A DNA stretch of 64,000 nucleotides from positions 62,001-126,000 of the forward strand of contig NZ_JABBND010000008.1 in assembly GCF_012933465.1 (NCBI RefSeq), written 5' to 3'. How positions within the stretch are numbered: position 1 is the stretch's first letter; every line of letters starts with the position of its first letter. The notes under the pieces were generated by a model, which worked only from the letters and a program-made list of their open reading frames with translations, had not been told where the DNA came from and ran no database searches. Shown in pieces: positions 4,483 through 20,862 of this stretch. This DNA comes from Actinomycetospora sp. TBRC 11914 (lineage in GTDB: Bacteria; Actinomycetota; Actinomycetes; Mycobacteriales; Pseudonocardiaceae). Position numbers and translations under genes: made by a program.

Positions 4483-4785
4483 ATGACGCAGCCGGGACGG
4501 GGGAGCGCCCTCGGGATGATCGAGACGCGCGGACTCGTCGGTGCCCTCGAGGCGGCGGACGCGATGGTCAAGGCGGCCGCGGTCGAGATCGAGGGGTACC
4601 GGACGCTGCGCAACGGCCAGGTGTCGGTGCTCGTCCGCGGCGACGTCGGGGCCGTGACCGCCGCCGTCGACGCCGGCACGGTCGCCGCGGCCGCCGTCGG
4701 GGAGCTGTACGCCTCGCACGTCATCCCCCGGCCGGCCGGCGACACCGAGGGCATCGTCGACGCGGCCGTCTCCCGCTTCCGCTGA
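4483..4785 (+). CDS. BMC-H shell protein (hexamer)
   Basis: The 100-residue protein is one bacterial microcompartment domain: [30 protein letters not shown], then [21 protein letters not shown] and the ASHVIPRPAGDTEGI end typical of PduA/CcmK-like hexamers that tile the shell facets. ATG 4483 gives a short tail before the domain. The gene is alone on the plus strand, convergent with the PucR regulator, and has its own candidate operator (4411-4437). A second, longer BMC-H gene is at 12226-12567; the two share the [10 protein letters not shown] / MIETRGLVGA core but differ in N-terminal tail, so they may form mixed facets. Confidence 0.95.
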   Translation: MTQPGRGSALGMIETRGLVGALEAADAMVKAAAVEIEGYRTLRNGQVSVLVRGDVGAVTAAVDAGTVAAAAVGELYASHVIPRPAGDTEGIVDAAVSRFR

Positions 4786-4791
4786 CCCGAG

Positions 4792-6900
4792 CTACTCCCC
4801 GTTCAGCTGCAGCAACCGCAGCGCGACGTCGGCCCGCATCCGGTCATCGTGGCGGGAGAGGTCCAGCCCGGTGAGCTGCTTGATCCGCTCGAGGCGGTAG
4901 CGCAGCGTCTTGTGGTGCACGAACAGCTTCTCGGCGGCGGCACGCTGCGAGCAGTCGGCGTCGAAGAAGGCCCGCAGGGTCCGGACCAGGGCACCGTCGT
5001 TGTCCCGGTCGTAGGCGACCAGGGGCCCGGTGACGTCCTCGATGAAGGTCTGGAGGTCGGGGTCGGAGCCCGACCCGAGCAGCAGCCGCACGACGCCGAG
5101 CTCCTCGTAGAGGAAGACGTTGTCGCCGCCGAGGCGCTGGGAGGCCGACAGCGCCGTCCTGGCCTCGTTGAAGGCGCTCGGGAGACCCTCGGCGTCGTCG
5201 TGCGGCCGGCTCACCCCCCACGACGAGCGCAGCCCGGGGGCCTCCCCCCGCGTCGAGGCGACGATGTCGTGCACCAGTGACTTCGCCGCGGCCGCGTCCA
5301 GGGACTCGGCGACGGCCACGACGAGGTCGCCGCGCAGCCCGACCAGCGCGAGGCGCGGCCCGTCCTCGCGGTCGCGCAGCCCGCGGACGACGTCCCGGCG
5401 GAGCCGGTCGGTCCGCGAGGTGTCCCACCCGTGGGCGTCGGCGAGGTCCTCGACGTTCTCCAGACGCCCGTAGAGCACCCGCAGCCGGGACCCGAGGGCG
5501 ACCCCCATCTGCTGCGCCCGGGCCCGGGCCGCGGCGCGGTGCTCGGGCGGGCCCTGCAGGAGATCCCAGAGCACCTCGTTGAGGGCCTCACGGCGGGCCC
5601 GGCTGGCCGCCCGCTCGCGCAGCAGCGTCAGCGAGCACGCCATGGCGACCTGGCCCGCGACCGCGTCGAGCATCTCCTCCCCGGAGCCGTCGGCGCCCTC
5701 GGCGGGCAGGAGGCACACGCACCCGATCTCGTCGCCGTCGGCGTGGACGGGCTGGATGCGGGCCTCGGCCGGGAGGCCGGCCCGGCGCACGGTGCGCGCG
5801 GGCCGTGACCGCGGCGGCAGCGTGTCCGGGAGCCCGTCCCCGCCGTGCCCGGCGAGCCGGGTCCCGGCCGCGTCGTAGATGCCGACCTGGCAGCGCAGGT
5901 GCCCGGCCACGTGCCGCGCCACCGCCGGGAGACCGCCGCCGTCGAGCACCGTCGTGAGCAGCGCCTGCTGCAGCTCGGCGGTGCGCCCGAGCACGCTGAC
6001 CTGGTGCTCGAGGGCGGCGTGCGCGGACTCCAGGTCGGCGTTGGCGCGGACCTGCTCGTCGTGGAGCCGGGCGCTGCGCAGGGCGATCGTCGCGAAGTTC
6101 GCCAGGGTGACCATCCGGCGCACGTCCTGCTCGGAGAACACCGACGGCCGGCGCCGCCACACCTCGAGCACCCCGAGGAACTCGCCGGGCAGCTCGAGGG
6201 GCACCGCGAGCGCGGACTCGGTCTGCTCCCGCTCGGCGAGCCCGACGAAGTCGCGGCTGATGGTGCGGTCCTCGACGTAGCGGTCGACCTTGGCGGGCCT
6301 CCCGGTCTCGAACACCAGCCCTGCGACGCCCTGCCCGCGCCGCATCCGCAGCCGCGCGGTGTCGATCACGCGGTGGCCGACGCACGACCGCATCCGGACC
6401 TCGTCGCCCTCGCGCAGCAGCACCCCGCAGATGTCGGCGTCGAGCAGGCCCAGGGTGCGGTCGGCGATGGAGAGCAGGAGCTGGTCGACGTCGTGCACCG
6501 AGAGCAGTGCCTCGACCACGTCGGTGACGATCGCGGTCTCCGCGGCCGCGTCGTCGAGGTGGGTCGCAGCCTGGTCGCGCTCGACCACCAGCCGCAGCCA
6601 GACGCACGCCTGCTCGAGCCGGAGCCGCTGCTCGGGCGTCACGCGGGGGCACTCGATCGACCACGACAGCGCGACCGGGCCGCTGTGCACCGTCCGGACC
6701 CCCGTCGGGGCGTGGTCCAGGGTGACCCAGACCGGGCCGCCCACGATCTCGGCGGCGGCGCGCTCGACGTCCTCCAGCGCGCTCGCCGGGTCGTCGGGAA
6801 CCGTCGTCAGCAGATGCTGCACGGGGCACCCCGTCCGCGGCGCGGGGATCGGCACGGCCGCCGGGCCCGGTTGCTGCGTCTCGACGCCGACCGGCTCCAT
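4792..6900 (-). CDS. GAF and PucR-type transcriptional regulator
   Basis: The 702-residue protein starts at ATG 6900 behind CGGAGGTGGG. A GAF domain lies at about residues 125-280 (RGQGVAGLVFETGRPAKV, PLELPGEFLGVLEVW), followed by a coiled segment and a second sensor-like region, then a PucR/CdaR-type C-terminus with a helix-turn-helix (CSQRAAAEKLFVHHKTLRYRLERIKQLTG, about 640-680). Family members respond to small ligands and usually activate nearby catabolic genes. Sitting at the end of the BMC gene run, it is the likely pathway regulator and the likely reader of the three GGACAA-N14/TTGTC palindromes (inference). Confidence 0.85.
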   Translation of the reverse strand: MEPVGVETQQPGPAAVPIPAPRTGCPVQHLLTTVPDDPASALEDVERAAAEIVGGPVWVTLDHAPTGVRTVHSGPVALSWSIECPRVTPEQRLRLEQACVWLRLVVERDQAATHLDDAAAETAIVTDVVEALLSVHDVDQLLLSIADRTLGLLDADICGVLLREGDEVRMRSCVGHRVIDTARLRMRRGQGVAGLVFETGRPAKVDRYVEDRTISRDFVGLAEREQTESALAVPLELPGEFLGVLEVWRRRPSVFSEQDVRRMVTLANFATIALRSARLHDEQVRANADLESAHAALEHQVSVLGRTAELQQALLTTVLDGGGLPAVARHVAGHLRCQVGIYDAAGTRLAGHGGDGLPDTLPPRSRPARTVRRAGLPAEARIQPVHADGDEIGCVCLLPAEGADGSGEEMLDAVAGQVAMACSLTLLRERAASRARREALNEVLWDLLQGPPEHRAAARARAQQMGVALGSRLRVLYGRLENVEDLADAHGWDTSRTDRLRRDVVRGLRDREDGPRLALVGLRGDLVVAVAESLDAAAAKSLVHDIVASTRGEAPGLRSSWGVSRPHDDAEGLPSAFNEARTALSASQRLGGDNVFLYEELGVVRLLLGSGSDPDLQTFIEDVTGPLVAYDRDNDGALVRTLRAFFDADCSQRAAAEKLFVHHKTLRYRLERIKQLTGLDLSRHDDRMRADVALRLLQLNGE

Positions 6901-6923
6901 GAACCCACCTCCGGTCCGTTCCG

Positions 6924-7955
6924 TTACAGCCGGATCAGCGGCTTGAGCGTAAGCCGCTCGCTCATCGACCGATACGCTTCCGGCACCTCGTCGAGCGAGA
7001 TCCGATCGCTCACGACCGCCGCCGGGTCGAGCGTCCCGGCCCGCACGAGCGCGAGCAGCGGCTCGGCGTCGCGCATGACGTCGCCGACGGCGAAGGAGAC
7101 CCCGAGCTCCTCGGTGAAGGCCCTCGCCGCCGGCAGCTCCACGGTGTCCTCCGGGACCCCCACCGCCGCGACCCGGCCCCGCCGCCGCACCAGGTCGAGC
7201 GCGAGGGCGAGGCCGCGGTCGCCCCCGACCGCGTCGACGACGACGTCCGCGCCGCGCCCGTCGGTGACCCCGTCGACCACCCCGCGCGCGTCCTCCGGCG
7301 CGGCCGGCAGCGCGCCCTCGCGGGCGGCGACCTCCCGCCGGCCGGCCACCGGTTCGACCACGACGACGACGCCGGCCCCGCACGCCTGCGCGACGAGGCT
7401 CGTGACCTGCCCGACCGGCCCCCCGCCGAGCACCGCGACGGTCTCCCCCGGCTCGAGGCCCGCGCGGCGCACCGCGGCGTAGCCGGTGGCGACGGTGTCG
7501 CCGAGCAGGACGGCGGCGTCCAGGTCGACCCCGTCCGGGAGCCCCACCAGCGTGGTGTCCGCGAACGGCACGCGCACCAGCTCGGCCTGCGCGCCGGCCA
7601 GGGGTGCCCCGAAGAGCGACCCGGTGCCGAAGAACCGCCGCTCGGCGCACTGCCAGTGGTCCCCGCGCCGGCACCACCAGCAGCGTCCGCAGGCCGTGTA
7701 GTCCGCGGCGAGGACCACGTCGCCCAGCTCGTGGCCGTGGACCGCGTCGCCGCGCTCGACCACCTCACCGGCGAACTCGTGGCCGAGGACGAAGCCGCGG
7801 GGCAGTGCCTCGTGGTGGGCGAGCACGTGCAGATCCGTGCCGCACACGGCCGCCCGGCGCACCCGGACGATCGCGTCGGTGGGCGCGCACAGCCGCGGGT
7901 CGGCGACCTCGTCGACCCGCACGCGCCCGTTCCCGGCGTGCACGACGGCCCTCAC
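6924..7955 (-). CDS. zinc-dependent alcohol dehydrogenase
   Basis: This 343-residue medium-chain dehydrogenase has the catalytic-zinc segment CGTDLHVLAHHEALPRGFVLGHEFAGEV, the four-Cys structural-zinc loop (CGRCWWCRRGDHWQC) and the Rossmann motif VAVLGGGPVGQVTSLVAQ. GTG 7955 is chosen because GGGGAGGAGGGG lies just upstream. It is 14 bases after the malate/lactate-type dehydrogenase, in the shell operon. In a BMC it could oxidise an alcohol to the aldehyde used by the acylating aldehyde dehydrogenase, or reduce aldehyde to recycle NADH; no N- or C-terminal encapsulation peptide is visible. Confidence 0.9.
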   Translation of the reverse strand: MRAVVHAGNGRVRVDEVADPRLCAPTDAIVRVRRAAVCGTDLHVLAHHEALPRGFVLGHEFAGEVVERGDAVHGHELGDVVLAADYTACGRCWWCRRGDHWQCAERRFFGTGSLFGAPLAGAQAELVRVPFADTTLVGLPDGVDLDAAVLLGDTVATGYAAVRRAGLEPGETVAVLGGGPVGQVTSLVAQACGAGVVVVVEPVAGRREVAAREGALPAAPEDARGVVDGVTDGRGADVVVDAVGGDRGLALALDLVRRRGRVAAVGVPEDTVELPAARAFTEELGVSFAVGDVMRDAEPLLALVRAGTLDPAAVVSDRISLDEVPEAYRSMSERLTLKPLIRL

Positions 7956-7969
7956 GGCCCCTCCTCCCC

Positions 7970-9313
7970 TCAGGACGCCCGCGCCATCGACCCGACCCGC
8001 TTCCGGATCCGCTCCCCCGCCTCGCGCAACGCGGTGAGCTCGGCGGCGGACAGGTCGAGTGCGACGATCTCGCGCAGCCCGTGCCGTCCGAGCCGGACCG
8101 GCAGGCCGAGGTAGACGTCGGAGATGCCGTAGGTGCCGTCGGCGAGCACGGCGGCGGACATCACCTCTCCGGTCTCGCGGACCATGGCGAGCACCATGCG
8201 GGCCGCCGACGTCCCGGGCGCCAGGAAGGCGCTGCCGCTGCGCAGCAGGCCGACGACCTCCGCGCCGGACCCGCGGGCCCGGTCCACGACCGCCGATAGC
8301 CGCTCGGCCGGGACCTGCCCGGCGAGCGCGCGGCCCCCGGCCCGGGCCCGGGACAGCGGGATGACCATCTCCTCGCCGTGGCTGCCCAGCGCGATCGCCT
8401 CCACCGCGCCGGCCCGACCGGTCCCCTCGAGGGCCACCAACGCCTGGAACCGGGCGGTGTCGAGCACCCCGGCCATCCCGACGACCCGGCCGGACGGGAA
8501 CCCGGAGCACACCCAGGCGTGCTGGGTCATCTCGTCGAGCGGGTTGGTGACCACGACGACGACGGCGTGCGGCGAGGTCGCGGCCACGCTGCGGGCGAGG
8601 CCGCCGACGATCTCGGCGTTGGTGCTGACCAGGTCGGCGCGGCTCATCCCCGGTCGGCGTGGCCGCCCGGCGGTGATCACGACGTAGTCGGCTGGTCCGG
8701 CCTCCGCGACGGTCGCCACTCCCCGGACCCGGGTGGCGAAGTCGGCCAGGGCCGCGGTGTGCTGCAGGTCCAGCGCGATCCCGGCGGCGCGGCCCTCGTC
8801 GACGTCGACCAGAACCAGCTCGTCGAACACGTCGGCGTCGGCCAGCCGCATCGCGGCGATCATCCCGACGTGGCCGGCGCCGACGACGACGACGCGGCCC
8901 GTCGCGCCGCCACCGTGCGGGGCCGGGCTGGCGAGCCCGGACGGGAGCGGCGCACCGCGCCGGAAGAGCGCTCCCGACGGCGGGTGCATGCTGCGGACCG
9001 GACCGCCGGTGCCGGTGGGGAGGGCCGGCACCGGCGGCGTCGCCGGGGAGGGTCTCGGGTGACCGCGGCCGGGGCGGCGGGTGGCCGGGGTCGTCGCGGA
9101 CGTGCTGCCCGGCGGGGTGCGGTCGGTGGTCCCGGACGACGGCGGGGGTGGTGCGGCCGGCCGGTCGGCGGCGTCCGCGGACGCGATGGTGACGCCGAGC
9201 TCCCGGGCCCGGTCGCGGGCGAGCGGCGTGAGGACGTCGCCCGGGCCGAGCCGCAGCGTCGCGCCCCGCTGGGCCGCGGCCTCCACGTCGCGGGTGCCCC
9301 ACACGGTGCTCAT
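7970..9313 (-). CDS. malate/lactate-type dehydrogenase with BMC-targeting N-terminus
   Basis: The 447-residue protein has three parts. Residues 1-45 form a small domain ending LGPGDVLTPLARDRARELGV, a pattern seen at the ends of BMC cargo proteins. Residues 46-137 are a Pro/Gly/Ser-rich linker. Residues 138-447 are an NAD-dependent LDH/MDH fold: GAGHVG (145-150), substrate-loop RPRRPGMSR (217-225), NPLD, and catalytic His312 in GSHGEEM. The Arg-rich RPGMSR loop is typical of malate-type enzymes rather than lactate-type. It sits between BMC-T and alcohol dehydrogenase. Likely a luminal enzyme that makes or uses a hydroxyacid, or recycles NAD inside the shell (inference). Confidence 0.85.
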   Translation of the reverse strand: MSTVWGTRDVEAAAQRGATLRLGPGDVLTPLARDRARELGVTIASADAADRPAAPPPPSSGTTDRTPPGSTSATTPATRRPGRGHPRPSPATPPVPALPTGTGGPVRSMHPPSGALFRRGAPLPSGLASPAPHGGGATGRVVVVGAGHVGMIAAMRLADADVFDELVLVDVDEGRAAGIALDLQHTAALADFATRVRGVATVAEAGPADYVVITAGRPRRPGMSRADLVSTNAEIVGGLARSVAATSPHAVVVVVTNPLDEMTQHAWVCSGFPSGRVVGMAGVLDTARFQALVALEGTGRAGAVEAIALGSHGEEMVIPLSRARAGGRALAGQVPAERLSAVVDRARGSGAEVVGLLRSGSAFLAPGTSAARMVLAMVRETGEVMSAAVLADGTYGISDVYLGLPVRLGRHGLREIVALDLSAAELTALREAGERIRKRVGSMARAS

Positions 9314-9341
9314 GGCCGAGCTCCGCGCGCCTTCTGCGGGC

Positions 9342-9965
9342 TCACGCGTCCTGCCCCTTCAGCTCCTGGAGCGCGCCGACCGCCGCGTCGCGCGCGGACT
9401 GGACCTCGCTCTCGGTGCCGGAGAGGAACATCCGGCCGAAGCGCCCGACCGCGCGGAGCTCGATGACCGTGATGGACGCGGCCTTCTCGGCCTCGTTGGC
9501 CGCGATCGAGATGTAGGCCGCGGGGGCGACCTCCATGATGAACAGGCTCTGACCGGGCATGAGCATGCTGCCCTTGCGCCACTTGTTGAGCAGCTGCGCC
9601 TGGTAGGGGTGCACGTTGGTGATGAACTGCGTCGAGGCGATCGCCGGGCGGATCCGGTCGGTCTCGACGAGGCCGAACTCGTCGAGCACGGCCTGCCCGG
9701 ACGCGAGCACCTCGGCCTGCTGCTCGGAGTGGATCTCGAGCAGCCCGAACTCGCGCTCGATGATCTGCAGCGCCGGCCGGACCCCGGCGGCCTTGAGCGC
9801 GATGTCGGCGGCGCGGAAGACCTCGTTGCCCGGCGCCATCTCGATGTAGAGCTCGGCCATCCCGGCGATCGGGACGTCGCCGGGGCTCGTCGCGGCGATG
9901 TGCGCCGCGCACTGCGGCTGCATCCGGTCGACGAAGGCGTACGTGCGCAGGCTGGGTGTGCTCAC
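9342..9965 (-). CDS. BMC-T tandem-domain shell protein
   Basis: At 207 residues the protein contains two BMC-like halves (about 7-95 and 105-203), as in trimeric pseudohexamers such as PduT or CsoS1D. Half two reads MPGQSLFIMEVAPAAYISIAANEAEKA. Half one, IAGMAELYIEMAPGNEVFRAADIALKAAG, is followed by EFGLLEIHS. Its GTG start at 9965 overlaps the TGA of the EutJ-like gene by four bases (GTGA), so the two are co-translated. BMC-T trimers often provide larger, sometimes gated or metal-binding pores; no Cys ligand for a central cluster is obvious here. Confidence 0.88.
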   Translation of the reverse strand: MSTPSLRTYAFVDRMQPQCAAHIAATSPGDVPIAGMAELYIEMAPGNEVFRAADIALKAAGVRPALQIIEREFGLLEIHSEQQAEVLASGQAVLDEFGLVETDRIRPAIASTQFITNVHPYQAQLLNKWRKGSMLMPGQSLFIMEVAPAAYISIAANEAEKAASITVIELRAVGRFGRMFLSGTESEVQSARDAAVGALQELKGQDA

Positions 9966-10810
9966 GGGGCGGACCTCGCGATCCCGAGCGGGGTGATGAG
10001 CAGGGCGTGCGGGTGGGTCACGACGGTCCTATGCAGGTACGTGGCCAGGACGTCCCCCGCGAGCGGCAGCATCAGCGCGCCGCCGGCGAGGTGGAGGGGC
10101 AGGTCGGTGGCATCGGCCGGCTCCTCCAGCGGCTCGAGCATGGCCCGGACCGACTCGGCGATGCGGTGCAGGCCAGGGGTGAGGATCGGGAGGGCCTCGG
10201 CGGGCCGCTCCCGCTTGACCCGCTCGGCGTCCTCGAGCCCGATCCCGAGCGCCCCGGCCAGGACGAGGTCGAGGTGGTGCCCGCCGCCGGGGCGGTCGTC
10301 GAGGCGCACCAGCTCACCGCCGCGGAAGACCCCGACGCCGGTGGACCCGCCGCCGACGTCGACGAGCACACCGTCGGTGACGCCGAGCGTCCGCTGCGCC
10401 GCGCTGACCTCGTCGACCAGCGCCACCTCGTCGAACCCGGCCGCCTCGCAGACGTAGGTGCAGGCCCGGGCATCGGCGACCGGGATGCACGGCGGGTAGG
10501 CGGTCGCCGCCCGCGGCAGCTCCACCCCGAGCGCCTCCTGCGCCCGCTCCCGCAGCCCGCGCACCGTCGCGACCGCGCGGGCGAAGTCGACGACGACGCC
10601 GTCGTGCAGCGCGCCCGAGCCCGCCGACGCGACCCACACCGGCCGGTCCTCGCCGTCGTCGTCGCGGTCGAGGACGACGAGCACGCAGCTCGCCGTCCCG
10701 AGGTCGACGCCGACGCGGGGCCGCGCCGGGGGCGTCGTGACCGGGTCGTCCCGCCGGGCGGCCGCCGCGGCGAGCAGGGCGTGCGCGGCGTCCCACCCGC
10801 CGCCGGCCAC
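9962..10810 (-). CDS. EutJ-like actin/Hsp70-fold ATPase
   Basis: The 282-residue protein has the ASKHA nucleotide-binding motifs: phosphate-1 RVGVDLGTASCVLVVLD, phosphate-2 GVLVDVGGGSTGVGVF and adenosine motif LHLAGGALMLPLAGDVL. EutJ proteins are found in ethanolamine and other BMC operons and are thought to be chaperone-like; their exact role is unsettled. GTG 10810 overlaps the TAG stop of the aldehyde dehydrogenase gene by one base, and its own stop overlaps the BMC-T start, so all three are translationally coupled. Its presence supports this being a catabolic metabolosome. Confidence 0.85.
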   Translation of the reverse strand: MAGGGWDAAHALLAAAAARRDDPVTTPPARPRVGVDLGTASCVLVVLDRDDDGEDRPVWVASAGSGALHDGVVVDFARAVATVRGLRERAQEALGVELPRAATAYPPCIPVADARACTYVCEAAGFDEVALVDEVSAAQRTLGVTDGVLVDVGGGSTGVGVFRGGELVRLDDRPGGGHHLDLVLAGALGIGLEDAERVKRERPAEALPILTPGLHRIAESVRAMLEPLEEPADATDLPLHLAGGALMLPLAGDVLATYLHRTVVTHPHALLITPLGIARSAP

Positions 10811-12222
10811 TAGACCTCGACGCTGTCGTAGACGCTGCGCCATGGCCGGACCTCGTGGGCGACTCGTTTGATGTTGATCAGGTGCAGGGGGGTGACGTTG
10901 TCCGAGCAGATCGAGCCGCTCCACGTCCCGGTGCCGAGCTGGAAGGACGGGTCGACGTCCGTGGAGTAGCCCATGCCGCCGAAGAGCGCCGGGGTGTTGA
11001 CGACGATGCGTCCGGCGGGCAGCGAGGCGAACAGCGCGATCTCGCCGGGGTCGGTCGCGTGGACCGCCGTGGTGTGCCCCTCGCCGCCGAGCGCGAGGAT
11101 CTCCCGGCAGCGCGCGAGCCCGGCGCGCGGGTCGCGGGCCCGGTACACCGAGAGGACCGGGCCGAGGATCTCCCGCGACAGCGGGACGTCGGCGCCGACG
11201 GTGACGAGCTCGCAGGCGAGCACCCGCGTGTCGTCGGGCACCCGGAACCCGGCGAGCTCGGCGAGCCGGCGGGCGCTCTGCCCGACGGCGGCCGGCCGCA
11301 GCCCACCGCGGTCGTCGAAGAGCACACCGGTCAGGGCCGCCTGCTGCGCGGCGTCCATCCAGTGCGCGCCGCGGTCGGCGAACGCGCGCAGGAACTCGTC
11401 GGCGACGGCGTCGACGACCACCACGGACTGCTCGGCGACACAGGCCGTGCCGTTGTCGAACGACTTCGAGGTGATGATCATCTCGGCGGCCTCGGCCGCG
11501 TCGGGGACGCTCGGGCCGACGTAGGCGGGCACGTTGCCCGCGCCGACCGCGATCGTCGGCTTCCCGCTGGAGTAGGCCGCGCGCACCATCCCCGGGCCGC
11601 CGGTCGCGAGGACCAGCGCGACCTCGTCGCGGCGCATCAGCTCGGCGGTCGCGGCCAGCGTCGGGCTCTCCAGGCACGACACGACCCCCGCGGGCGCGCC
11701 GGCGTCGACGGCCGCCTCGGCCATGACCTGTGCGGCCCGCAGGGTGCAGCGGGCGGCCCGGGGGTGCGGCGCGTGGACGACGGCGTTGCCGGACTTCACC
11801 GCGGCGAGGCTCTTGAACAGCGCCGTCGAGGTCGGGTTGGTGACCGGGATGATCGCCGCGATGACGCCCATCGGGCTGCCGATGGCGGTCACGCGCGAGG
11901 CCTCGTCGGTCCAGAGCACGCCGACCGCGCGGCGCTCGAGCATCCACCGGGCGACGAACCCGGTGTTGTACCGGTTCTTGTGGATCTTGTGCTCGTAGAC
12001 GCCGTAGCCGGTCTCGTCGACGGCGAGCCGCGCGAGCTCCTCGGCGGCCGTCGTCCCCGCGCGCGCCATCGCCCGCACCCAGCCGTCCAGGGTCTCCTGG
12101 TCGACGCCCTCGAGCGCCCGGACGGCCTCCCGGGCGGCCCGGGCCTTGGCCCGGACGTCGGCCAGTCCGGCGAGGTCCGCGTCGAGCCCGCCCCCCGTCC
12201 CGTCGGTGAGGGTCGCGGTCAT
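10810..12222 (-). CDS. CoA-acylating aldehyde dehydrogenase
   Basis: The 470-residue protein is a CoA-acylating aldehyde dehydrogenase, the core enzyme of catabolic BMCs. The catalytic Cys261 lies in SKSFDNGTACVAEQSVVV, and VLATGGPGMVRAAYSSGKPTIAVGAGNVP is the AdhE/acetaldehyde-dehydrogenase type of cofactor loop. It should turn an aldehyde, NAD and CoA into acyl-CoA and NADH. No clear encapsulation helix is seen at either end, unlike many PduP proteins. It lies three bases after the second BMC-H gene. No phosphotransacylase is found in the window, so the acyl-CoA probably leaves directly, as proposed for the mycobacterial RMM type. Confidence 0.92.
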   Translation of the reverse strand: MTATLTDGTGGGLDADLAGLADVRAKARAAREAVRALEGVDQETLDGWVRAMARAGTTAAEELARLAVDETGYGVYEHKIHKNRYNTGFVARWMLERRAVGVLWTDEASRVTAIGSPMGVIAAIIPVTNPTSTALFKSLAAVKSGNAVVHAPHPRAARCTLRAAQVMAEAAVDAGAPAGVVSCLESPTLAATAELMRRDEVALVLATGGPGMVRAAYSSGKPTIAVGAGNVPAYVGPSVPDAAEAAEMIITSKSFDNGTACVAEQSVVVVDAVADEFLRAFADRGAHWMDAAQQAALTGVLFDDRGGLRPAAVGQSARRLAELAGFRVPDDTRVLACELVTVGADVPLSREILGPVLSVYRARDPRAGLARCREILALGGEGHTTAVHATDPGEIALFASLPAGRIVVNTPALFGGMGYSTDVDPSFQLGTGTWSGSICSDNVTPLHLINIKRVAHEVRPWRSVYDSVEV

Positions 12223-12225
12223 CGC

Positions 12226-12567
12226 CTACGCCTTCGGGCGGGCGAGGATGGCGAGGATGCCCTCGGTCTCGTCGTGCGGGCGCGGGATGACGTGGACGGA
12301 CACGACCTCGCCGGCCTTGCCCGCGGCGACCGCCCCGGCGTCCGTCGCGGCCTTCACCGCGCCGACGTCGCCGCGGACCATCACGGTCACCAGCCCGCCG
12401 CCGATCTCGCGGTGGCCGAGCACCTGGACGTTGGCGGCCTTGACCATCGCGTCGGCGGCCTCGATGGCCCCGACGAGGCCCTTCGTCTCGATGAGCCCGA
12501 GCGCCCCGCGCATCGGGACCGCGCCGTTGGTCGACGCTCCGGTCGTCGCCGTCGCCGTGGTGGTCAT
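12226..12567 (-). CDS. BMC-H shell protein with N-terminal tail
   Basis: The 113-residue protein holds one BMC domain from about residue 19: [53 protein letters not shown], then [16 protein letters not shown] flexible Thr/Ala-rich tail ([16 protein letters not shown]) precedes it. It is the major hexameric facet protein candidate because it is second in the shell operon, 30 bases after the pentamer gene. Start ATG 12567 follows a CACTGGAGGACTGTC ribosome binding site. Confidence 0.95.
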
Positions 12568-14020: not shown

Positions 14021-15027
14021 CCTCGGTGCGGGCCGTCGTCTTCGACCTCGACGGGACGCTGGTACAGACCCGCGTCGCGTCCTGGGAGGTCTTCGAGCCG
14101 ATCAGCCGGCGGCACGGGCTCGGGGTGGAGACCCCCGGCCAGTACTTCGACCTGTTCCGGGGCAACGTCTTCACCTCGATCCGCGGGCTGTGCGCCACGG
14201 AGGAGCAGGCCCGGGCCGCGACCGGGGACTTCCTCGCGGCGCTGCGCTCGCACTACTCGCCGCCGCTGGTCCCGGGGATGCAGGCGGTGGTCCGGCGGCT
14301 GGCGTCGGAGTGCACGCTCGCGGTGATGTCGTCCAACGCGATGGAGGTGCTGCGGCGGGTCCTCGTCGACCACGGCCTGGCCTACTGCTTCGCGCACGTC
14401 TTCGGCGGTGACGTCGCCCCGGACAAGCGCACCGCGCTGCGGACCTTCCTCGCCGAGCCCGGCAGCGGGTACGGCCGGCGCTGCTCGGCCGACTACGACG
14501 AGGGCGGCGAGGCGCCCCGGCCGGACCCGGCGACGACGGTGCTCGTCACCGACACCGCGGGCGACGTGCGGGACGCCCGCGAGGTGGGGGTGCGCGTCGT
14601 CGGGGTGGCCTGGGGGATGCACGAGGCGGCGGAGCTCACGGCGGCCGGCGCCGAGTTCGTGGCGCTCTGGCCCCAGGAGGTGCTCTCCCACCTGCTCGGC
14701 GACGAGGCGGCCCGTGAGCCGACCGGGGCGTGCGCGATCCCGGGGGCGGCGCCGGCGGCGGGCGGCTGTGGGTGCGGGTGCAGTGTCAGCGGTGTCGCAT
14801 CGCAGACGTTCAGTGTCCGAAAAGCCACACCGTCGGCCGAGTCGGAGGCCCCCGGCGACCGGCGGCGACGCCGACGCCGCGAGGCCGCCGCCGCACTGCG
14901 CCCCGACGACGCCGTCGTGGTCGACCCGCCGCGGCCCTCGAACGGCCACCGGCCCGCGAACGGGCACCGCCCCGCGCACCACGACGAGCTCCGCGACGCG
15001 ATGCGCCGGATCCTCCGTGCGGGCTGA
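14017..15027 (+). CDS. HAD phosphatase-like protein with Cys-rich, EP-like C-terminus
   Basis: Residues 1-230 form a HAD hydrolase: DLDGT (10-14), MSSNAME around Ser105, K137, and TDTAGDVRDAREVG (178-191), as in phosphoglycolate phosphatase-like enzymes. Unusually, residues 231-336 add a tail: GGCGCGCSVSG (249-259), basic RRRRRRR, a Pro/Asn-rich linker with NGHRPANGHRPAH, and a final amphipathic helix HDELRDAMRRILRAG. A linker followed by a terminal amphipathic helix is the hallmark of a BMC encapsulation peptide. The tail therefore suggests a luminal phosphatase; the Cys cluster may bind metal. It overlaps both neighbouring genes. Confidence 0.78.
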   Translation: MTSVRAVVFDLDGTLVQTRVASWEVFEPISRRHGLGVETPGQYFDLFRGNVFTSIRGLCATEEQARAATGDFLAALRSHYSPPLVPGMQAVVRRLASECTLAVMSSNAMEVLRRVLVDHGLAYCFAHVFGGDVAPDKRTALRTFLAEPGSGYGRRCSADYDEGGEAPRPDPATTVLVTDTAGDVRDAREVGVRVVGVAWGMHEAAELTAAGAEFVALWPQEVLSHLLGDEAAREPTGACAIPGAAPAAGGCGCGCSVSGVASQTFSVRKATPSAESEAPGDRRRRRRREAAAALRPDDAVVVDPPRPSNGHRPANGHRPAHHDELRDAMRRILRAG

Positions 15028-15751
15028 GCCGGTCTCCCCCGCCGGCACGCTGAACTTCCGCGACCTCGGGGGCCTGCCGGCCGGTCCCGGCCGCCGCACC
15101 CGGTCCGGGGTGCTCTTCCGCAGCGACACCCTCCAGGCGCTCTCCGACGCCGACGTCGCGCTGCTGGTCGAGGAGCTCGGCCTCGAGGTGGTGATCGACC
15201 TGCGCGTCGGGCCCGAGGCGATCGAGGAGGGCCGCGGCCCCCTCGTCGCCCACGACGTCACCTACCTCAACGCGCCGCTGCGCGGGGCCGAGCCGAACGA
15301 CGAGCCACCGGACCGTCAGGCGCTGCTGTTCTCGCTGGGGCACCTCGAGGCGCCGACCTCGGTGCTCGGGTCGGTCGTGCGGGCGGCGGCCGCGTTCGCC
15401 GGCCGCCCGACCGTCGTCCACTGCGCCGCGGGCAAGGACCGCACCGGCCTCGTCGTGAGCCTGCTGCTCGCGCTCGCCGGGGTCGACCGCGAGGCGATCG
15501 TCGCCGACTACCTGGCCAGCGGGCCCAACATGGCCGCGGTGGTCGAGCGGTTCCACACGTGGCCGCGCTACGCCGCGCACATGGCCTCGGTCGCCCCGGA
15601 GCTCTACCAGGCGCACGAGGAGACGGTCCGCGGCCTGCTCGACGCCCTCGACGAGCGCTACGGCGGTGCTCGGGGCTGGGCGCGCGCCCGTGGGCTCGAC
15701 GACGACCTCCTCGACCGCTTCCCGGCTCTGCTCACCGAGCCGGCCGGCTGA
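15017..15751 (+). CDS. tyrosine-phosphatase-like Cys-based phosphatase
   Basis: The 244-residue protein is of the bacterial protein-tyrosine/serine phosphatase family (PtpB-like): NFRDLGGLPAG near the N-terminus, LFRSD, and the active-site loop HCAAGKDRTG (Cys136, Arg142). It starts at GTG 15017, overlapping the HAD gene by 11 bases in another frame, so the pair is co-expressed. Such enzymes hydrolyse phosphotyrosine, phosphoinositides or other small phosphates. Two phosphatases next to a dikinase-like operon in a BMC locus is unusual and hints at a phosphorylated intermediate (inference). Confidence 0.85.
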   Translation: MRAEPVSPAGTLNFRDLGGLPAGPGRRTRSGVLFRSDTLQALSDADVALLVEELGLEVVIDLRVGPEAIEEGRGPLVAHDVTYLNAPLRGAEPNDEPPDRQALLFSLGHLEAPTSVLGSVVRAAAAFAGRPTVVHCAAGKDRTGLVVSLLLALAGVDREAIVADYLASGPNMAAVVERFHTWPRYAAHMASVAPELYQAHEETVRGLLDALDERYGGARGWARARGLDDDLLDRFPALLTEPAG

Positions 15752-15766
15752 CCCGGTAGGTCAGCG

Positions 15767-18259
15767 TCACTGCGCCAGCGCCGCGCGTCCCAGGCCGAGC
15801 AGGAGCGGGCGCACCTCCGGCAGGTCCACCGCGAACCGGCGGAACCCGAGTGCGTACAGCTGCGCTGCGACCGCGTCGGAGACCGTCCCCGAGAGCCGCA
15901 CCCCCACCGGGACGTCCGGGTGCGCCCGCGCCACCTCGGCCAGCCCGGCCAGCAGCGGCTCGACCGACGGGTCGATCGCGTGTCGCGGGTCGGTCGAGAG
16001 CAGCCCGCGCGCCACGTAGGAGTCCAGCGGCGCCGCGGTGAGGAACTGCCGCGCCGGAATGCCGAACATCGCCGCCTGCAGCGCCCGGACCTCCAGCCAC
16101 ACGACGGCGCTGTGCGCGGCCAGGGCGTCGGCGTTCAGCACGGCCCGCGGGCTGGTGAGGTAGGTGCCCATCCCGGGCCCCGCGCCGTCGGCCTCCGCCA
16201 GGGCACGCACCTCGGCGGGGTCGGAGACGTGGCGCACCGCGAGCCGCATCCGCCCGCCGTAGCCGGACTCGGCGGCGGCGAGGGCGAGACCCGCCCGCTG
16301 GGCGGCGACGAGCGCCGGCACCCCGAGCGGCAGGGCGAGCTCCGGGTGCCGCGTGGTCACCGCCGTCTGCTGGAGCAGCTCCCGGGACTCGTCGGCGAGC
16401 AGGTCGATGGCGCGCACGTCGACGTCGGCGCCGCCCGCCTCCGCGAGCAGCCCGGAGACCTGCCGCGCGACGGCCTGCCGGACCTCGTCGAGCGCGGTCC
16501 CCGACCCGCCGCCGTCCCACCCCTTCTCCAGCAGGGTCTCGACGAGGTGGTTGAGGTCGCCGGACGCGGCCAGCACGTCGTCGACGGCGGTGACGATCCC
16601 GGTGGCGCCCGCCTCCCGTGCCGCCACCACGTCCGCGGGCACCGTGACGCGGGCGAGCACCGCCGCGCCGGAGGCCTGCGTCGCCGCCGTCAGCAGCGCG
16701 TCCATCGCCTCGGTGGCCGCGGCCGGCGTCGTCGTCGGGAGCGCCCCGGCCACCAGCTCGCCCGAGGCGCCGTCGAGCGAGACCGGGTCGCCCTCGGCGA
16801 GCACCCGCTCCCCCACCCGGACCGTCCGCGCCGCCGCGTCGATCTCCAGCTCACCCGCGCCGACGACGCACGCCGTCCCGAGGGCGCGCGCGACGACGGC
16901 GGCGTGGCTCGTCGAGCCGCCGGTGGCGGTGACGATGCCGCGGGCGGCGATCATGCCGTGCAGGTCGGCCGGGCTGGTCACCGCGCGGGCGAGGACGACG
17001 TCGGCGCCCGCGTCGGCCCGGTCCTTGGCGCGGTCGGGGTCGAGGACGAGCTCCCCGCTCACCTGTCCCGGGCACGCCCCGATGCCGGTCACGACCACCC
17101 GCCCCGCCGCGCGCGCCTCGTCGAGCGCGTCGCCGTCGAAGCCCGGCCGCGCCGCCGCCCGGAGCTGCTCGGCCGTCACCAGGGACAGCGCGCGCGACGG
17201 CGAGGCGGTGCCGTCGCGGAGCAGGTCGGCGGCGATCCGCACCGCGGCCTCGGGGGTGCGCTTCGCGCTGCGGACCTGCAGGAACCAGACGACGCCGCGC
17301 TCGACGGTGAACTCGACGTCGAGCACGTCGCCGTGCCGGGCCTCGAGCCCGGCGCACGCCCCCTCGAGCTCGCGCAGCAGCGGGGCCGGCAGCGCCCGCG
17401 CCACCGGGTCCGGGGTCCGCGTCCCGGCGACGACGTCCTCCCCCTGGCTGTGCGCGAGGTACTCGCCGTAGAGGCCGGGCTCGCCGGTCACCGGGTTGCG
17501 GGTGAACACGACCCCGGAGCCCGACGAGTCGTCCAGGTTGCCGAACACCATCGCCTGTACGACGACGGCCGTGCCCATGTCGTGCGGGATGCCGTGGTGC
17601 TCGCGGTAGGTGCGGGCGCGGCGGGTGTTCCACGAGCGGAACACCGCCTCGACCGCGTGGCGGAGCTGCTCGTCGGGCACCGCCGGGACGCTCTCGGCGA
17701 GCTCCTCGTCGAGCGCCGCCTCGGCGGCGGCCCAGACGCGCTCGTAGGCGTCGGCGGGGTCGTCGTCGGGACGGATCCGCGCGACGACGGCGTCGACCGC
17801 GTCGCGCTCGTCCAGCGCGCCGAGCACGATCTCGGAGTACATCGCGTGGAAGCGGGCCACGAGGTCGGCCATGAACGCGGTGTCTCCCGCGCGCTCCGCG
17901 ATCGCGATCGCCGCCTCGCGGGAGAGCCCCAGGTTGAGGACGGTGTCCATCATCCCGGGCATCGAGACCGGTGCCCCCGAGCGCACGGAGACGAGCAGTG
18001 GCTCCGGGCCGGTCCCGAAGGTCCTGCCGGTCGCGGCCTCCATCGCCGACAGCCGGTCGCGGAGCTCGTCGACCAGCCCGTCGGGCAGCGCCCCGCGGTC
18101 GAGGTAGAGGTGGCAGGCGGTCGTGACGACCACGCAGCCCGGCGGGACGCGGAGCCCGTCGCGGGTCATGCGCACGAGCCCGGCGCCCTTGCCGCCGAGG
18201 AGCTCGACGTCGACCTCGCCGTCGTCGGTGAACGCCCTGGTCCAGCCGGGTGCGCTCAC
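15767..18259 (-). CDS. PPDK-like phosphotransferase with degenerate C-terminal barrel
   Basis: The 830-residue protein has a pyruvate-phosphate-dikinase ATP-grasp region (1-340): LGGKGAGLVRM, SVRSGAPVSMPGMMDTVLNLGL (91-112), SGSGVVFTRNPVTGEPGLYGEYL and WFLQVRSAKRT. A swivel domain follows, with the phospho-histidine His452 in GGSTSHAAVVAR. The C-terminal 330 residues sit where PEP/pyruvate binds but lack the GTNDLTQ-type and ICGE/Cys motifs that the canonical PEP synthase at 28264-30657 retains. The ATP half looks active; the acceptor half does not look able to use pyruvate. GTG 18259 overlaps the 205-aa gene's stop by four bases. Likely transfers phosphate to another acceptor (inference). 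Confidence 0.82.
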   Translation of the reverse strand: MSAPGWTRAFTDDGEVDVELLGGKGAGLVRMTRDGLRVPPGCVVVTTACHLYLDRGALPDGLVDELRDRLSAMEAATGRTFGTGPEPLLVSVRSGAPVSMPGMMDTVLNLGLSREAAIAIAERAGDTAFMADLVARFHAMYSEIVLGALDERDAVDAVVARIRPDDDPADAYERVWAAAEAALDEELAESVPAVPDEQLRHAVEAVFRSWNTRRARTYREHHGIPHDMGTAVVVQAMVFGNLDDSSGSGVVFTRNPVTGEPGLYGEYLAHSQGEDVVAGTRTPDPVARALPAPLLRELEGACAGLEARHGDVLDVEFTVERGVVWFLQVRSAKRTPEAAVRIAADLLRDGTASPSRALSLVTAEQLRAAARPGFDGDALDEARAAGRVVVTGIGACPGQVSGELVLDPDRAKDRADAGADVVLARAVTSPADLHGMIAARGIVTATGGSTSHAAVVARALGTACVVGAGELEIDAAARTVRVGERVLAEGDPVSLDGASGELVAGALPTTTPAAATEAMDALLTAATQASGAAVLARVTVPADVVAAREAGATGIVTAVDDVLAASGDLNHLVETLLEKGWDGGGSGTALDEVRQAVARQVSGLLAEAGGADVDVRAIDLLADESRELLQQTAVTTRHPELALPLGVPALVAAQRAGLALAAAESGYGGRMRLAVRHVSDPAEVRALAEADGAGPGMGTYLTSPRAVLNADALAAHSAVVWLEVRALQAAMFGIPARQFLTAAPLDSYVARGLLSTDPRHAIDPSVEPLLAGLAEVARAHPDVPVGVRLSGTVSDAVAAQLYALGFRRFAVDLPEVRPLLLGLGRAALAQ

Positions 18260-18873
18260 TCGGCCCGCTCCCGGCCGAGCGTGCGCAGCAGGTCCTCGTG
18301 GAACTCGAACCAGACGGTGTGGATCGAGTCGCGGGTCGGGGACGACACGAGGTCGTGGTCGCCGTCGTCGATGCCGGCCAGGGCGGTCGCGAAGCGCGTC
18401 GCGTAGGTGGCGAAGCGCGCGTCGTGGCGGGCGAGCGCCGCGATCAGCCCGTCGAGCCGCCCGACCAGGCGCTCCAGCCGGCTGATGACCTTCCCGTCGT
18501 AGGCGGCGTCGGTGTGGTCGTTCGCGACCTTGCGCCCGCCCACGTCGACCTGCTGCCAGGAGGACATCGTCGTGAGCAGCGCGGCGTTGGTCTTCTCGAA
18601 CTGCTCGACGAGCGCGAGGACGTCGTCGTCGCCCCGGACCCCCGCGTAGATCTCGGCGGCGGTCGCGGCCAGCCGGGGCTCGGCCTCGTCGGTCGGCAGG
18701 GCGGCGCCGCCGGCCACCACCGCGAGGCCGCCCGCCGCCAGGGACGCGAGGCGCTCCTCGACGTCGTCCGGGGACAGCTCCACGACCGCCGCGATCGCCG
18801 GAGCGCCGGCCATCTTCTTCAGGGCGAGGACGTTGAGGACGTCGTAGTCGGGCTTGGCCAGGGTCGTCGTCAT
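18256..18873 (-). CDS. helical protein of the dikinase-like operon, winged-helix-like N-terminus
   Basis: The 205-residue protein is unrecognised. Residues 8-65 (DYDVLNVLALKKMAGAPAI ... DDVEERLASLAAGGLAVVAG) have the spacing of a winged helix, and the remainder is helical, with LVEQFEKTNAALLTTMSSWQQ and paired helices around KVISRLERLVGRLDGLIAAL. It starts at ATG 18873 behind CCCAGGAGGAGCTCC and is coupled to the PPDK-like gene by a GTGA overlap, so it is probably a subunit or partner of that enzyme rather than a separate regulator. No catalytic motif is visible. Confidence 0.6.
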   Translation of the reverse strand: MTTTLAKPDYDVLNVLALKKMAGAPAIAAVVELSPDDVEERLASLAAGGLAVVAGGAALPTDEAEPRLAATAAEIYAGVRGDDDVLALVEQFEKTNAALLTTMSSWQQVDVGGRKVANDHTDAAYDGKVISRLERLVGRLDGLIAALARHDARFATYATRFATALAGIDDGDHDLVSSPTRDSIHTVWFEFHEDLLRTLGRERAE

Positions 18874-18965
18874 GGAGCTCCTCCTGGGAAGTCGACGGCC
18901 GGGTGCGGCGCCCACGCGGGGCCGCACCCGGCCGGGGACCGGCCGCCGTCACCGGCGGTGGCGGC

Positions 18966-20399
18966 TCAGAGCCAGCGGTACTTCGACCGGGTCGGGCTGA
19001 TGCCGTCCGGGAAGGGCAGGTAACCGGCACCGGAGAAGATCTTCGACGGCACCGTCTCCTGGGCGAATCCCCGTTTGGTGATGTCGTAGTAGTAGTTCGC
19101 GACGCGCTGGTCGATCTCCCACAGGTCGTAGTCGCGGCACGCCTTCTCGTACGTCCCGGCCTTGCGCATGTGCGGGAGGATCATGTCGATGTAGTAGACG
19201 TACTGACCGTTCCAGATGAGGTCGCGGCGGCACATCTTCGACGTCTTCGTGTACAGCTTCAGCGTCGCCTGCTGCACCCGACCCAGGTGGTCGCCCAGGT
19301 CGGAGATCGGGATGTTGTAGACCTCGCCCATCGGCGTGTCCCACTTCTCCCGCGCGAACACCGCGCCGCCGACGACGGCCTGCAGGTAGTTCTTGGGCCG
19401 CGTGAACGTGGTCGAGATGTCGTTCACCCGGATCTCCTCCAGGTTCATGATGTCCGGGTCGAGGACGAGCGCGAGCGTGTAGACGTGCGGGAGCTTCGCG
19501 TCCTCGCAGACGTCGCTCCAGTGGAAGACCTCCTCGTTGACGAAGAGGTCGCGCAGGATCAGCAGCTTGCCGTCGGGCAGCTCGTACGGGCCGGTGTCAC
19601 CCAGGCCGAGCCGGCAGTCGTAGTGGTCGAGGAACGCGAGCAGTTCGGCGGCCGCGTTGAACTGGGTGAACGCGCCGTGCTCGGGTCCGTCCGGGTCGAG
19701 CGGCTCGACCTGGTTCACGATCGAGTCCAGGAAGTCCTGGTCGTGGATCCGGCAGCGGTACCGGTCCTGGGAGTTGAGGATGTAGCCGTCCTGGCGCTTG
19801 CCCCACAGCACCCGCTGCATGAACTTGAGGATCTCGTTGGACTCCTCGACGTACTCGTCGGGCTTGATCACCTCGAGGGCGAGCAGGCCGCAGCGGCCCA
19901 TGCCGAACCCGACCGCGCCGATGCACCAGTCGTGCACCGCGTTGACCTTGGTGCCGATCTCGCGGCGGGCCGACGCGCCGATGTCCATGATCCCCTGAGC
20001 GCCGCCGACGGCCTCGGTCGTCATGGCCATGAGCTCGGGCCACCGGTAGAACTCGTGCATGAAGGCCAGGATCTCGTACTCCTGGCGGGGGATCATGCCG
20101 GAGACGCCCTCGGTGGCCCGCATGACGAGCACGTCCCAGATGTTCCAGGCGAGGTAGTTGTTGAGGTCGTTCAGCTCGTCGATCGTGAAGTGGTCGCGGA
20201 GGACGTCCTCCTTTGTGACCTTCTCCAGCACCCCGCTCCTGGCGCGGGAGCGCATCATCTTGTCGCCGAGGATGCCGTCGGTGACGGGGTCCATCCCGAC
20301 GAAGTTCCCGGTGTAGGTCAGGTCCTGGAAGCGCAGGCCGTCGTCGGCCTGTTCGTAGCGCTGCCGGAACGTGGCCCTCTTGCCCTCGGTCGTGGTCAT
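18966..20399 (-). CDS. unrecognised 477-aa protein of the dikinase-like operon
   Basis: I do not recognise this 477-residue protein. It is rich in aromatic and acidic residues, has little low complexity, and starts at ATG 20399 after CCAGGAGAGGACC. Noticeable segments are YNYL-like LNDLNNYLAWNIWDVLVMRA, the Gly-rich GGAQGIMDIGASARREIG, VHDWCIGAVGFGMGRCG, and a basic C-terminus SPTRSKYRWL. There is no signal peptide or membrane span. Its place between a swivel-domain gene and the PPDK-like gene resembles the central substrate-binding part of multidomain phosphotransferases such as rifampin phosphotransferase, so it may be the acceptor-binding or catalytic subunit. That is inference. Confidence 0.7.
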   Translation of the reverse strand: MTTTEGKRATFRQRYEQADDGLRFQDLTYTGNFVGMDPVTDGILGDKMMRSRARSGVLEKVTKEDVLRDHFTIDELNDLNNYLAWNIWDVLVMRATEGVSGMIPRQEYEILAFMHEFYRWPELMAMTTEAVGGAQGIMDIGASARREIGTKVNAVHDWCIGAVGFGMGRCGLLALEVIKPDEYVEESNEILKFMQRVLWGKRQDGYILNSQDRYRCRIHDQDFLDSIVNQVEPLDPDGPEHGAFTQFNAAAELLAFLDHYDCRLGLGDTGPYELPDGKLLILRDLFVNEEVFHWSDVCEDAKLPHVYTLALVLDPDIMNLEEIRVNDISTTFTRPKNYLQAVVGGAVFAREKWDTPMGEVYNIPISDLGDHLGRVQQATLKLYTKTSKMCRRDLIWNGQYVYYIDMILPHMRKAGTYEKACRDYDLWEIDQRVANYYYDITKRGFAQETVPSKIFSGAGYLPFPDGISPTRSKYRWL

Positions 20400-20445
20400 T
20401 GACTGCCGGTCCTCTCCTGGCTCGTGTGCTCGGCCGTGCCCTGCG

Positions 20446-20862
20446 TCAGTCGGCGACGACCCGCCCGACCTCGTCGTCGGTGCAGTCCAGGCGGACTTTC
20501 TTGCCGTCGAGCTCGCGGGCGATCTCGACGAAGTGCGCCTCGTCGGTGGAGCCCACGACGTAGCGCGAGTCGCTGTTCGTCAGGTGCGCGGTCATCACGC
20601 ACGGCGTCTGGAACTCGCGCGAGAGGATGCCGAGGTGCGACTCCGGCGCCCCCGACATCGTGATCACGCCGATGGCGCCCATCGAGAGGGCGGGCGCGAG
20701 GAAGGTGGTCGTCCCGCCGCGGACGAGCAGGATGTGCTCGGCGAGCTTGCCCGACTGGATCAGGCCGATGACGTCGGCCGGGGATTCCAGGTACTTCACC
20801 GTCCCCGACGGGGACTTCTTCGTGTCGAAGACGTTGTAGCCCTCGGCGAGGACGTCGGCCAT
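20446..20862 (-). CDS. stand-alone PEP-utilising swivel (phosphohistidine) domain
   Basis: The whole 138-residue protein is one mobile domain of the PEP-utilising enzyme family. GGTTTFLAPALSMGAIGVI is followed by SGAPESHLGILSREFQTPCVM; His76 aligns with the phospho-histidine of GGRTSHAAIVSRELGVPAIV in the canonical PEP synthase of this window. A free swivel could shuttle phosphate between the ATP-grasp partner and an acceptor site on another subunit. ATG 20862 is preceded by CGAGGAGGAACTCC. It is the first gene of the minus-strand operon that ends with the PPDK-like protein, 77 bases downstream of operator 3. Confidence 0.82.
   Translation of the reverse strand: MADVLAEGYNVFDTKKSPSGTVKYLESPADVIGLIQSGKLAEHILLVRGGTTTFLAPALSMGAIGVITMSGAPESHLGILSREFQTPCVMTAHLTNSDSRYVVGSTDEAHFVEIARELDGKKVRLDCTDDEVGRVVAD

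Follow-up and report, generated by a model that had tools for sequence, protein, structure and literature searches.

What does a bacterial microcompartment (BMC) do when no known signature enzyme is encoded with its shell? This question is raised by a locus at 4432-20862 of the window, as we call the whole stretch of 64,000 nucleotides from Actinomycetospora sp. TBRC 11914 (contig NZ_JABBND010000008.1, positions 62,001 to 126,000) analysed here. In this locus shell genes stand next to a split phosphotransfer module, which consists of a protein like pyruvate phosphate dikinase (PPDK), here named PPDKl, a lone swivel domain and two proteins of 477 and 205 amino acids (p477 and p205). A Pfam scan of 20 proteins (16 of the locus and four flanking) agrees with an initial annotation in finding neither a dehydratase (B12 or glycyl-radical type) nor EutBC, an aldolase or a pair of aminotransferase and kinase. 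We propose that these genes specify a metabolosome which handles a tertiary allylic alcohol, with the plant hemiterpene 2-methyl-3-buten-2-ol (MBO) as the likeliest substrate, although this explanation, taken as a whole, falls somewhat short of an even chance. This job, in which a plant alcohol of five carbons would be broken down, is suggested by the operons of shell-less relatives and would give a purpose to a class of organelles that had none assigned.

In the proposed pathway the first steps would take place outside the shell: the swivel histidine of PPDKl would be charged from ATP and pass its phosphate to the lone swivel, from which p477, together with p205, would transfer it to the alcohol. 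A DUF7064 protein would then ionise the tertiary phosphate and let the phosphate return at the primary carbon to give dimethylallyl phosphate, and a tailed phosphatase of the HAD family would free prenol inside the shell. An alcohol dehydrogenase (ADH) and an acylating aldehyde dehydrogenase (ALDH) would convert prenol to 3-methyl-2-butenal and further to 3-methylcrotonyl-CoA, with the reactive enal held by the shell, while an encapsulated malate dehydrogenase (MDH) would re-oxidise NADH and the leucine route of the host (carboxylase, hydratase, lyase) would complete the breakdown. We infer these chemical steps, their direction, the compartment and the substrate; what is observed is gene content, conservation, gene fusions, a correlation between phosphatase tail and shell, and shell-less operons with a gene set of the methylcrotonyl-CoA carboxylase (MCC) type.

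Operons with and without a shell

A species-genome collection was scanned with the p477 alignment, which matched 180 stretches and 155 relatives; all locus counts given here refer to the best 79 of these 155. Of these loci 57 are close (p477 69-97% identical to that of the window, the nearest being that of A. endophytica with 97%) and 22 are distant (35-39%). Shell genes lie in the stretch at 44 of the 57 close loci and at none of the 22 distant ones, and the carriers include Actinomycetota, Bradyrhizobium, Roseiarcus and one Eremiobacterota bin, among others. Moreover, the block is syntenic in four more Actinomycetospora genomes, in one of them (G006) with a broken swivel and p477 and in another (G017) with only a fragment of the tyrosine-type phosphatase gene. 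Hence the association of these genes exceeds chance. In A. cinnamomea (L015/L081) the module also appears to be broken, the swivel being split between frames and p477 by about 1.3 kb.

The initial annotation had taken the four genes as one phosphotransfer system tied to the shell, and this view is supported by 298 genomes drawn evenly from the order: all three other genomes with a close p477 (78-84%) carry BMC genes within 25 kb on the same contig, compared with 20 of 298 genomes having a BMC match of any kind. BMC genes were found in none of the five genomes of this draw having only a remote p477 (24-28%). Two cases run contrary to the link between module and shell: G012 combines a remote p477 with a different BMC pair, and the incomplete genomes G008 and G013 show this shell with no p477 match, their contigs ending inside the locus. 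We also noted a second BMC arrangement of two adjacent BMC-H matches, similar to the published ARO layout, in G002, G004, G005, G006, G008 (partial), G010, G011, G012 and G017.

The 13 close loci with no shell gene in the stretch comprise seven shell-less genomes, two loci with BMC matches elsewhere in the genome (L068 and L072) and four loci whose genomes were not tested (L040, L041, L048 and L079). At L072, in Pseudonocardia sp. CNS-139, the close module adjoins a gene of the fatty-acid-desaturase family. The seven genomes, for which completeness is not stated, gave no PF00936 match and belong to Methylocella, Xanthobacter, Endobacter, two Paraburkholderia, Caballeronia and Pseudomonas NFACC02. 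The initial annotation had expected the four genes not to occur widely without BMC genes, which turned out to be only half right; with the close system present in seven genomes that gave no BMC match, the machine can do without the shell. In a p477 tree of 78 loci and the window (quick search, SH-aLRT only; L081, with p477 pieces below 400 amino acids, was left out) these genomes sit at two distinct positions inside the close clade, which makes two or more losses or replacements of the shell probable. The label 'BMC' in this tree is a default for 50 rows, including L068, L072, L040, L041, L048 and L079.

DUF7064, HAD, swivel, p477, p205 and PPDKl are retained at every one of the seven shell-less loci, and beside the module each locus has a zinc ADH resembling benzyl alcohol dehydrogenase, together with an AMP-binding CoA ligase and an ALDH of the non-acylating kind (in Endobacter this ADH and the ligase are on the neighbouring stretch L111). 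The zinc ADH of Xanthobacter is nearest to the solved ADH 5tnx and to benzyl alcohol dehydrogenase 1f8f. MDH, EutJ and acylating ALDH were matched in none of the seven shell-less stretches. These operons bear on an explanation that follows the kinase/phospho-lyase logic of the RMM microcompartment: once phosphorylated, an alcohol or enol would be converted by a phospho-lyase straight to a short aldehyde (C2-C3), on which the acylating ALDH would act. The ALDH of the locus is indeed closest to acetaldehyde dehydrogenases, a hint of a shorter aldehyde, and DUF7064 finds its top fold match in a lyase that eliminates phosphate. However, HAD and DUF7064 each accompany the module in seven of seven shell-less and in 38 of 44 shell loci, and the presence of HAD makes it probable that the substrate leaves DUF7064 with phosphate attached; the shell-less operons have an ADH of their own, and the NFACC02 carboxyltransferase is nearer to MCC (1024 bits) than to propionyl-CoA carboxylase (835). 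We consider this short-aldehyde route unlikely. Thus the initial idea of a kinase followed by phosphate loss is retained, whereas the idea that phosphate loss itself gives the aldehyde is not supported.

Which product the proposed metabolosome would make is suggested by two of the shell-less genomes. In Pseudomonas NFACC02 a same-strand run encodes an outer-membrane protein (PF13557), a carboxyltransferase, a crotonase-type hydratase, a biotin carboxylase and a 3-hydroxy-3-methylglutaryl-CoA (HMG-CoA) lyase, and in Endobacter a run encodes a carboxyltransferase, BioB, a biotin carboxylase, MaoC, CitE and a 3-oxoacid CoA-transferase. A second MCC beta gene (91%) stands elsewhere in NFACC02 beside an acyl-CoA dehydrogenase, while the module run of NFACC02, like that of Endobacter, has no acyl-CoA dehydrogenase; the carboxylase of the NFACC02 run therefore seems to be an extra set that enters at 3-methylcrotonyl-CoA rather than at isovaleryl-CoA. 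Entry at this point is strengthened because the hydratase/lyase pairs of the two genomes are unrelated, and the genome of the window itself has an MCC beta homologue (70%). Two other candidates were set aside: MaoC and CitE near distant copies in Gordonia were dropped as support, no carboxylase being matched with them, and an HMGL-like gene in Xanthobacter was not counted, being on the other strand beside a CoA-transferase.

These runs also raise a C10 version of the pathway, in which linalool or a similar terpenoid would be turned into geraniol and broken down through geranyl-CoA. Linalool is likewise a tertiary allylic alcohol, and the NFACC02 hydratase passes the gamma-carboxygeranoyl-CoA hydratase model (526 bits, cut-off 426). 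Against this, the scores of both carboxyltransferases against geranyl-CoA carboxylase are roughly half of what they reach against MCC beta (471 against 1024 bits in NFACC02, 447 against 762 bits in Endobacter), and of all the alternatives weighed here we give the C10 version the least credence. The name gamma-carboxygeranoyl-CoA hydratase probably covers the leucine enzyme too, since the other hydratase copy of the NFACC02 host is 81% identical to that of the run. For the five-carbon pathway we slightly favour 3-methylcrotonyl-CoA as the product, our confidence being held down by the family match of this hydratase; MBO as the substrate is a more tentative assignment.

The proposed split dikinase

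PPDKl (15767-18259, minus strand) carries the ATP-grasp and swivel domains of PPDK (Pfam PPDK_N and mobile domain), and residues 6-556 of its 830 align with solved pyruvate phosphate dikinases. It passes the PRK05878 model, which has 534 residues and is named PPDK (499 bits, cut-off 456), and scores 541 bits over 9-619 against TIGR01828, below the cut-off of 843. Among 24 sequences, that of the window included, the swivel histidine His452 is invariant in all 24, and the first 505 positions include 114 invariant ones, the last 325 only 7. The phosphoenolpyruvate (PEP)-binding barrel PF02896 was not matched in PPDKl by Pfam at E <= 0.05. An internal control is provided by the canonical PEP synthase encoded some 7 kb away (28264-30630, minus strand); its PEP-binding domain is intact (PF02896, 218 bits). 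With the front half and His452 conserved and the barrel eroded, PPDKl has probably kept the ability to form phosphohistidine and given up pyruvate as acceptor. The split phosphotransfer set described initially is thus present, but its designation as PEP-synthase-like does not hold: judged by these profile matches PPDKl is PPDK-type rather than PEP-synthase-type, with its own swivel and an eroded barrel.

The lone swivel (20446-20862, minus strand; PF00391, a mobile domain of PEP-utilising enzymes, 32.1 bits) keeps its histidine motif in all 66 called copies, recognised in 65 by pattern match and in one by eye. Next to it are p477 (18966-20399, minus strand), the proposed alcohol-binding phosphotransfer subunit, with 25 invariant residues in an alignment of eight sequences and an AlphaFold2 model of pLDDT 89.9, and its partner p205 (18256-18873, minus strand). 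At eight distant loci swivel, p477 and p205 match as a single polypeptide of about 766-795 amino acids with the gene order kept, or at 11 counting L086, L098 and L106, which were judged on the alignment. Three further distant loci have a swivel-p477 fusion with no p205. The row L097:12878-15247 is out of frame past about residue 520 and was viewed only, the fusion count being independent of it. PPDKl is shorter at distant loci and has no barrel there (514 amino acids in L094). Because of these fusions a single complex is likely, and the four proteins probably form one alcohol dikinase. Such a dikinase would also suit a tertiary alcohol, as tertiary phosphoesters lie slightly above the ATP beta,gamma bond (PMC8449060). 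A number of distant fused swivel-p477 genes (L089, L094, L097, L099, L106, L107 and similar) adjoin cytochrome P450, ALDH and ADH genes, with no shells in the stretch, and these clusters possibly represent a family of unexplored, alcohol-phosphorylating clusters.

In such a complex p477 should hold the acceptor, by likeness to HpeHI, PpsAB and CreHI, the two-component dikinases of phenols (PMC12167813). The same likeness is the basis for another explanation, namely that phosphorylation both traps and activates a phenol or hydroxyphenyl ketone, as HpeHI does, for subsequent carboxylation by a biotin enzyme. Biotin carboxylase genes do lie next to more remote sets at L018 and L019, an arrangement that may recall the Hpe pathway, and PF13557, an outer-membrane family with phenol degradation in its name, has a member next to the module in L084 and L064. 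However, in NFACC02 a hydratase of the leucine type and an HMG-CoA lyase go with the carboxylase, the part of the flanking genes scanned showed no aromatic-ring enzyme, and a Foldseek search with the p477 model (E <= 0.001) matched nothing, not even rifampin phosphotransferase. The phenol route seems highly unlikely to us. For p477 no relatives were found by Pfam, NCBIfam, PDB sequence or fold searches (PDB, viral), and we claim no new fold; neither p477 nor p205 has a Pfam match at E <= 0.05. A weak NCBIfam match of p205 to YoaA (0.026) was discarded.

The proposed phosphate shift, probable lumen cargo and the remaining genes

The gene at 13040-14020 (plus strand), which the initial annotation had correctly placed in the operon but called CrtC-like, belongs to the DUF7064/7065 family (PF23212) and is our candidate phospho-alcohol isomerase/lyase. 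The top Foldseek match of its AlphaFold2 model (pLDDT 92.6) is 25-phosphosteroid lyase, and the likeness holds for the overall fold. A phosphate shift rather than an elimination is proposed because here a HAD phosphatase follows DUF7064. The same machine might instead act on isoprenol (3-methyl-3-buten-1-ol): isopentenyl phosphate would be made, DUF7064 would move the double bond, HAD would free prenol, and the rest would be the same. An MCC-type lower pathway and the order of kinase, isomerase and phosphatase fit isoprenol equally well, but a primary alcohol needs just an ordinary kinase or direct oxidation, and the fold of DUF7064 hints at a phosphate on a tertiary carbon. We regard isoprenol as improbable, more so than the short-aldehyde route and less so than the phenol route.

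The HAD phosphatase (14017-15027, plus strand; PF13419, HAD_2) has a C-terminal tail of about 100 amino acids. Among 44 called copies (L053 and L056, where HAD was found by tblastn, are absent from the calls) the length is 298-390 amino acids in all 37 outside the seven shell-less genomes, L068 included, and 231-268 amino acids in all seven of the shell-less ones. The tails are of low complexity and many end in a short amphipathic stretch such as DELLEAMRRICRA, which is not seen in L070, L074 and L077. Since the long tail tracks the presence of the shell, we are rather confident that the phosphatase is lumen cargo. The MDH-like protein (7970-9313, minus strand; 447 amino acids; PF00056/PF02866; 296 bits against NCBIfam malate dehydrogenase PRK06223, cut-off 283) looks like lumen cargo as well. 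It has a conserved N-terminal segment, possibly resembling the N-terminus of EutT, a Pro-rich linker and the motif SGALFRRGAP. The strict pattern of this SGALYRRGAP-like motif is found in the window and 16 loci, and a variant form in five more (L051, L055, L060, L061 and L063); the pattern also matches one unrelated ABC-protein frame in the window. MDH is present in 24 of 44 shell loci (the other 20 were not checked for reach) and in none of the seven shell-less ones. Encapsulation peptides have been described as amphipathic helices that a linker connects to one end of the protein (PMC8217296).

A number of observations weigh against the MBO pathway. DUF7064 has only 14% identity to 25-phosphosteroid lyase, AttH is tied with it in Z (22.7 vs 23.4), and the enzyme matched is a lyase. 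Carboxylase genes adjoin the module in two of seven shell-less loci and in none of the 44 shell loci. The Endobacter carboxyltransferase scores equally high against two other solved entries, a carboxyl transferase and propionyl-CoA carboxylase (772.5 and 762.6), so its assignment to MCC is less certain, and as the sole MCC beta found in its genome it may serve leucine. Five shell loci (L051, L052, L055, L060 and L080) also keep the non-acylating ALDH and the CoA ligase, both fates thus occurring together, and the tyrosine-type phosphatase has no place in the scheme. The missing fold match of p477, the C10-type score of the NFACC02 hydratase and the acetaldehyde-dehydrogenase likeness of the locus ALDH count on the same side.

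The locus is organised in three blocks. On the minus strand the first encodes the BMC-P vertex protein (12598-12978; EutN/CcmL, PF03319, 91.5 bits), BMC-H shell protein 1 (12226-12567; PF00936, 97.5 bits), the acylating ALDH of AdhE/TIGR02518 type (10810-12222; Pfam Aldedh, PF00171, and NCBIfam), an EutJ-like ATPase (9962-10810; NCBIfam EutJ 257 and 194 bits, cut-offs 182 and 152; Pfam MreB_Mbl), a BMC-T shell protein (9342-9965; PF00936, 40.1 bits, residues 143-201), MDH, the zinc ADH (6924-7943; PF08240, PF00107) and a GAF/PucR-type regulator (4792-6900; PF01590, PF17853, PF13556). BMC-H shell protein 2 (4432-4785, start at 4432 or 4516; PF00936, 93.7 bits) is on the plus strand. The second block, on the plus strand, holds DUF7064, HAD and the tyrosine-type phosphatase (15017-15751; PF13350, Y_phosphatase3, 168.6 bits), whose gene is present in 11 of 44 shell loci; the third, on the minus strand, holds swivel, p477, p205 and PPDKl. 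Pfam and NCBIfam confirm the initial listing of shell set, EutJ-like ATPase, acylating ALDH, ADH, two phosphatases, PPDK-like protein and lone swivel. What that inventory had missed is the MDH-like gene and the fit to the catalogued MIC1 type.

Comparison with known systems

We recognised no link of this dikinase to a microcompartment, or of MBO to these genes, in the portion of the open-licence literature covered. The closest relatives in logic are HpeHI, PpsAB and CreHI (PMC12167813), where, as is proposed here, an ATP-grasp part, a swivel with a catalytic histidine and an acceptor part phosphorylate the hydroxyl of a small molecule to open its catabolism. In the HpeHI type the ATP-grasp part is PEP-synthase-like and the swivel sits on the acceptor component, whereas here the ATP-grasp part is PPDK-type with its own swivel, a second swivel stands alone, and p477 has no recognised fold relative. 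The swivel-p477 fusions and the histidine motif fit such a joining of swivel and acceptor, and p477 would then bind the acceptor. The 25-hydroxysteroid kinase and 25-phosphosteroid lyase (PMC8449060; PDB 9FZN, 9G2I, 9G4C) offer a parallel in that a tertiary alcohol is phosphorylated before the phosphate leaves, but this kinase is another kind of phosphotransferase that makes ADP, and the product of the lyase is an alkene. Linalool isomerase and linalool dehydratase-isomerase (PMC4791888) bring about, as the proposed pathway would, a net 1,3 shift that takes the hydroxyl of a tertiary allylic alcohol to the primary carbon; unlike the proposed pathway these enzymes are membrane-bound or periplasmic, and that paper makes no mention of ATP.

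Among the microcompartments, RMM (PMC4207490 section 28) is an actinobacterial metabolosome of the same general kind, but no RMM-type aminotransferase or small-molecule phosphotransferase is present among the scanned proteins of locus and flanks. A BMC-T is present, and no Pfam of the ring-opening oxygenase pair of ARO (features in PMC8217296 section 8) was found in the same set. Matched by its gene-list description, the locus is probably a member of MIC1. This type was described with AldDH, MDH-pfam and zinc dehydrogenases, a hydrolase, a phosphatase and an MreB-like gene, with no phosphotransacylase and no signature enzyme, and in 2014 it was a metabolosome without resolved cofactor recycling (Axen et al. 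2014, PMC4207490 section 28); a CcmP-like shell protein is mentioned for it as well (PMC5853799). The locus has AldDH (PF00171), LDH/MDH-pfam (PF00056/PF02866), zinc-binding dehydrogenases (PF08240/PF00107), hydrolase and phosphatase (HAD_2, Y_phosphatase3) and the MreB-like gene (MreB_Mbl), and no phosphotransacylase was found among the 20 scanned proteins, which matches MIC1. The parts of the 2021 catalogue consulted give no function for this type.

Where MIC1 was described with no signature enzyme, we propose split dikinase, DUF7064 and HAD as its signature module and MDH as its means of cofactor recycling, which would tie the shell to a volatile plant alcohol. It may even be, though we hold this to be rather doubtful, that the orphan class as such is a hemiterpene-alcohol organelle, in which a PPDK-derived relay of two swivels produces an unstable tertiary phosphate outside, DUF7064 shifts the phosphate, the phosphatase frees the alcohol only inside and MDH recycles NAD+. 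Phosphorylation would then be the entry ticket to the organelle, and soil genera such as Pseudonocardia, Amycolatopsis and Bradyrhizobium, among others, would be concerned. If so, a phosphorylation-driven isomerisation of tertiary alcohols and an NAD+-recycling malate dehydrogenase would be added to the biochemistry of organelles.

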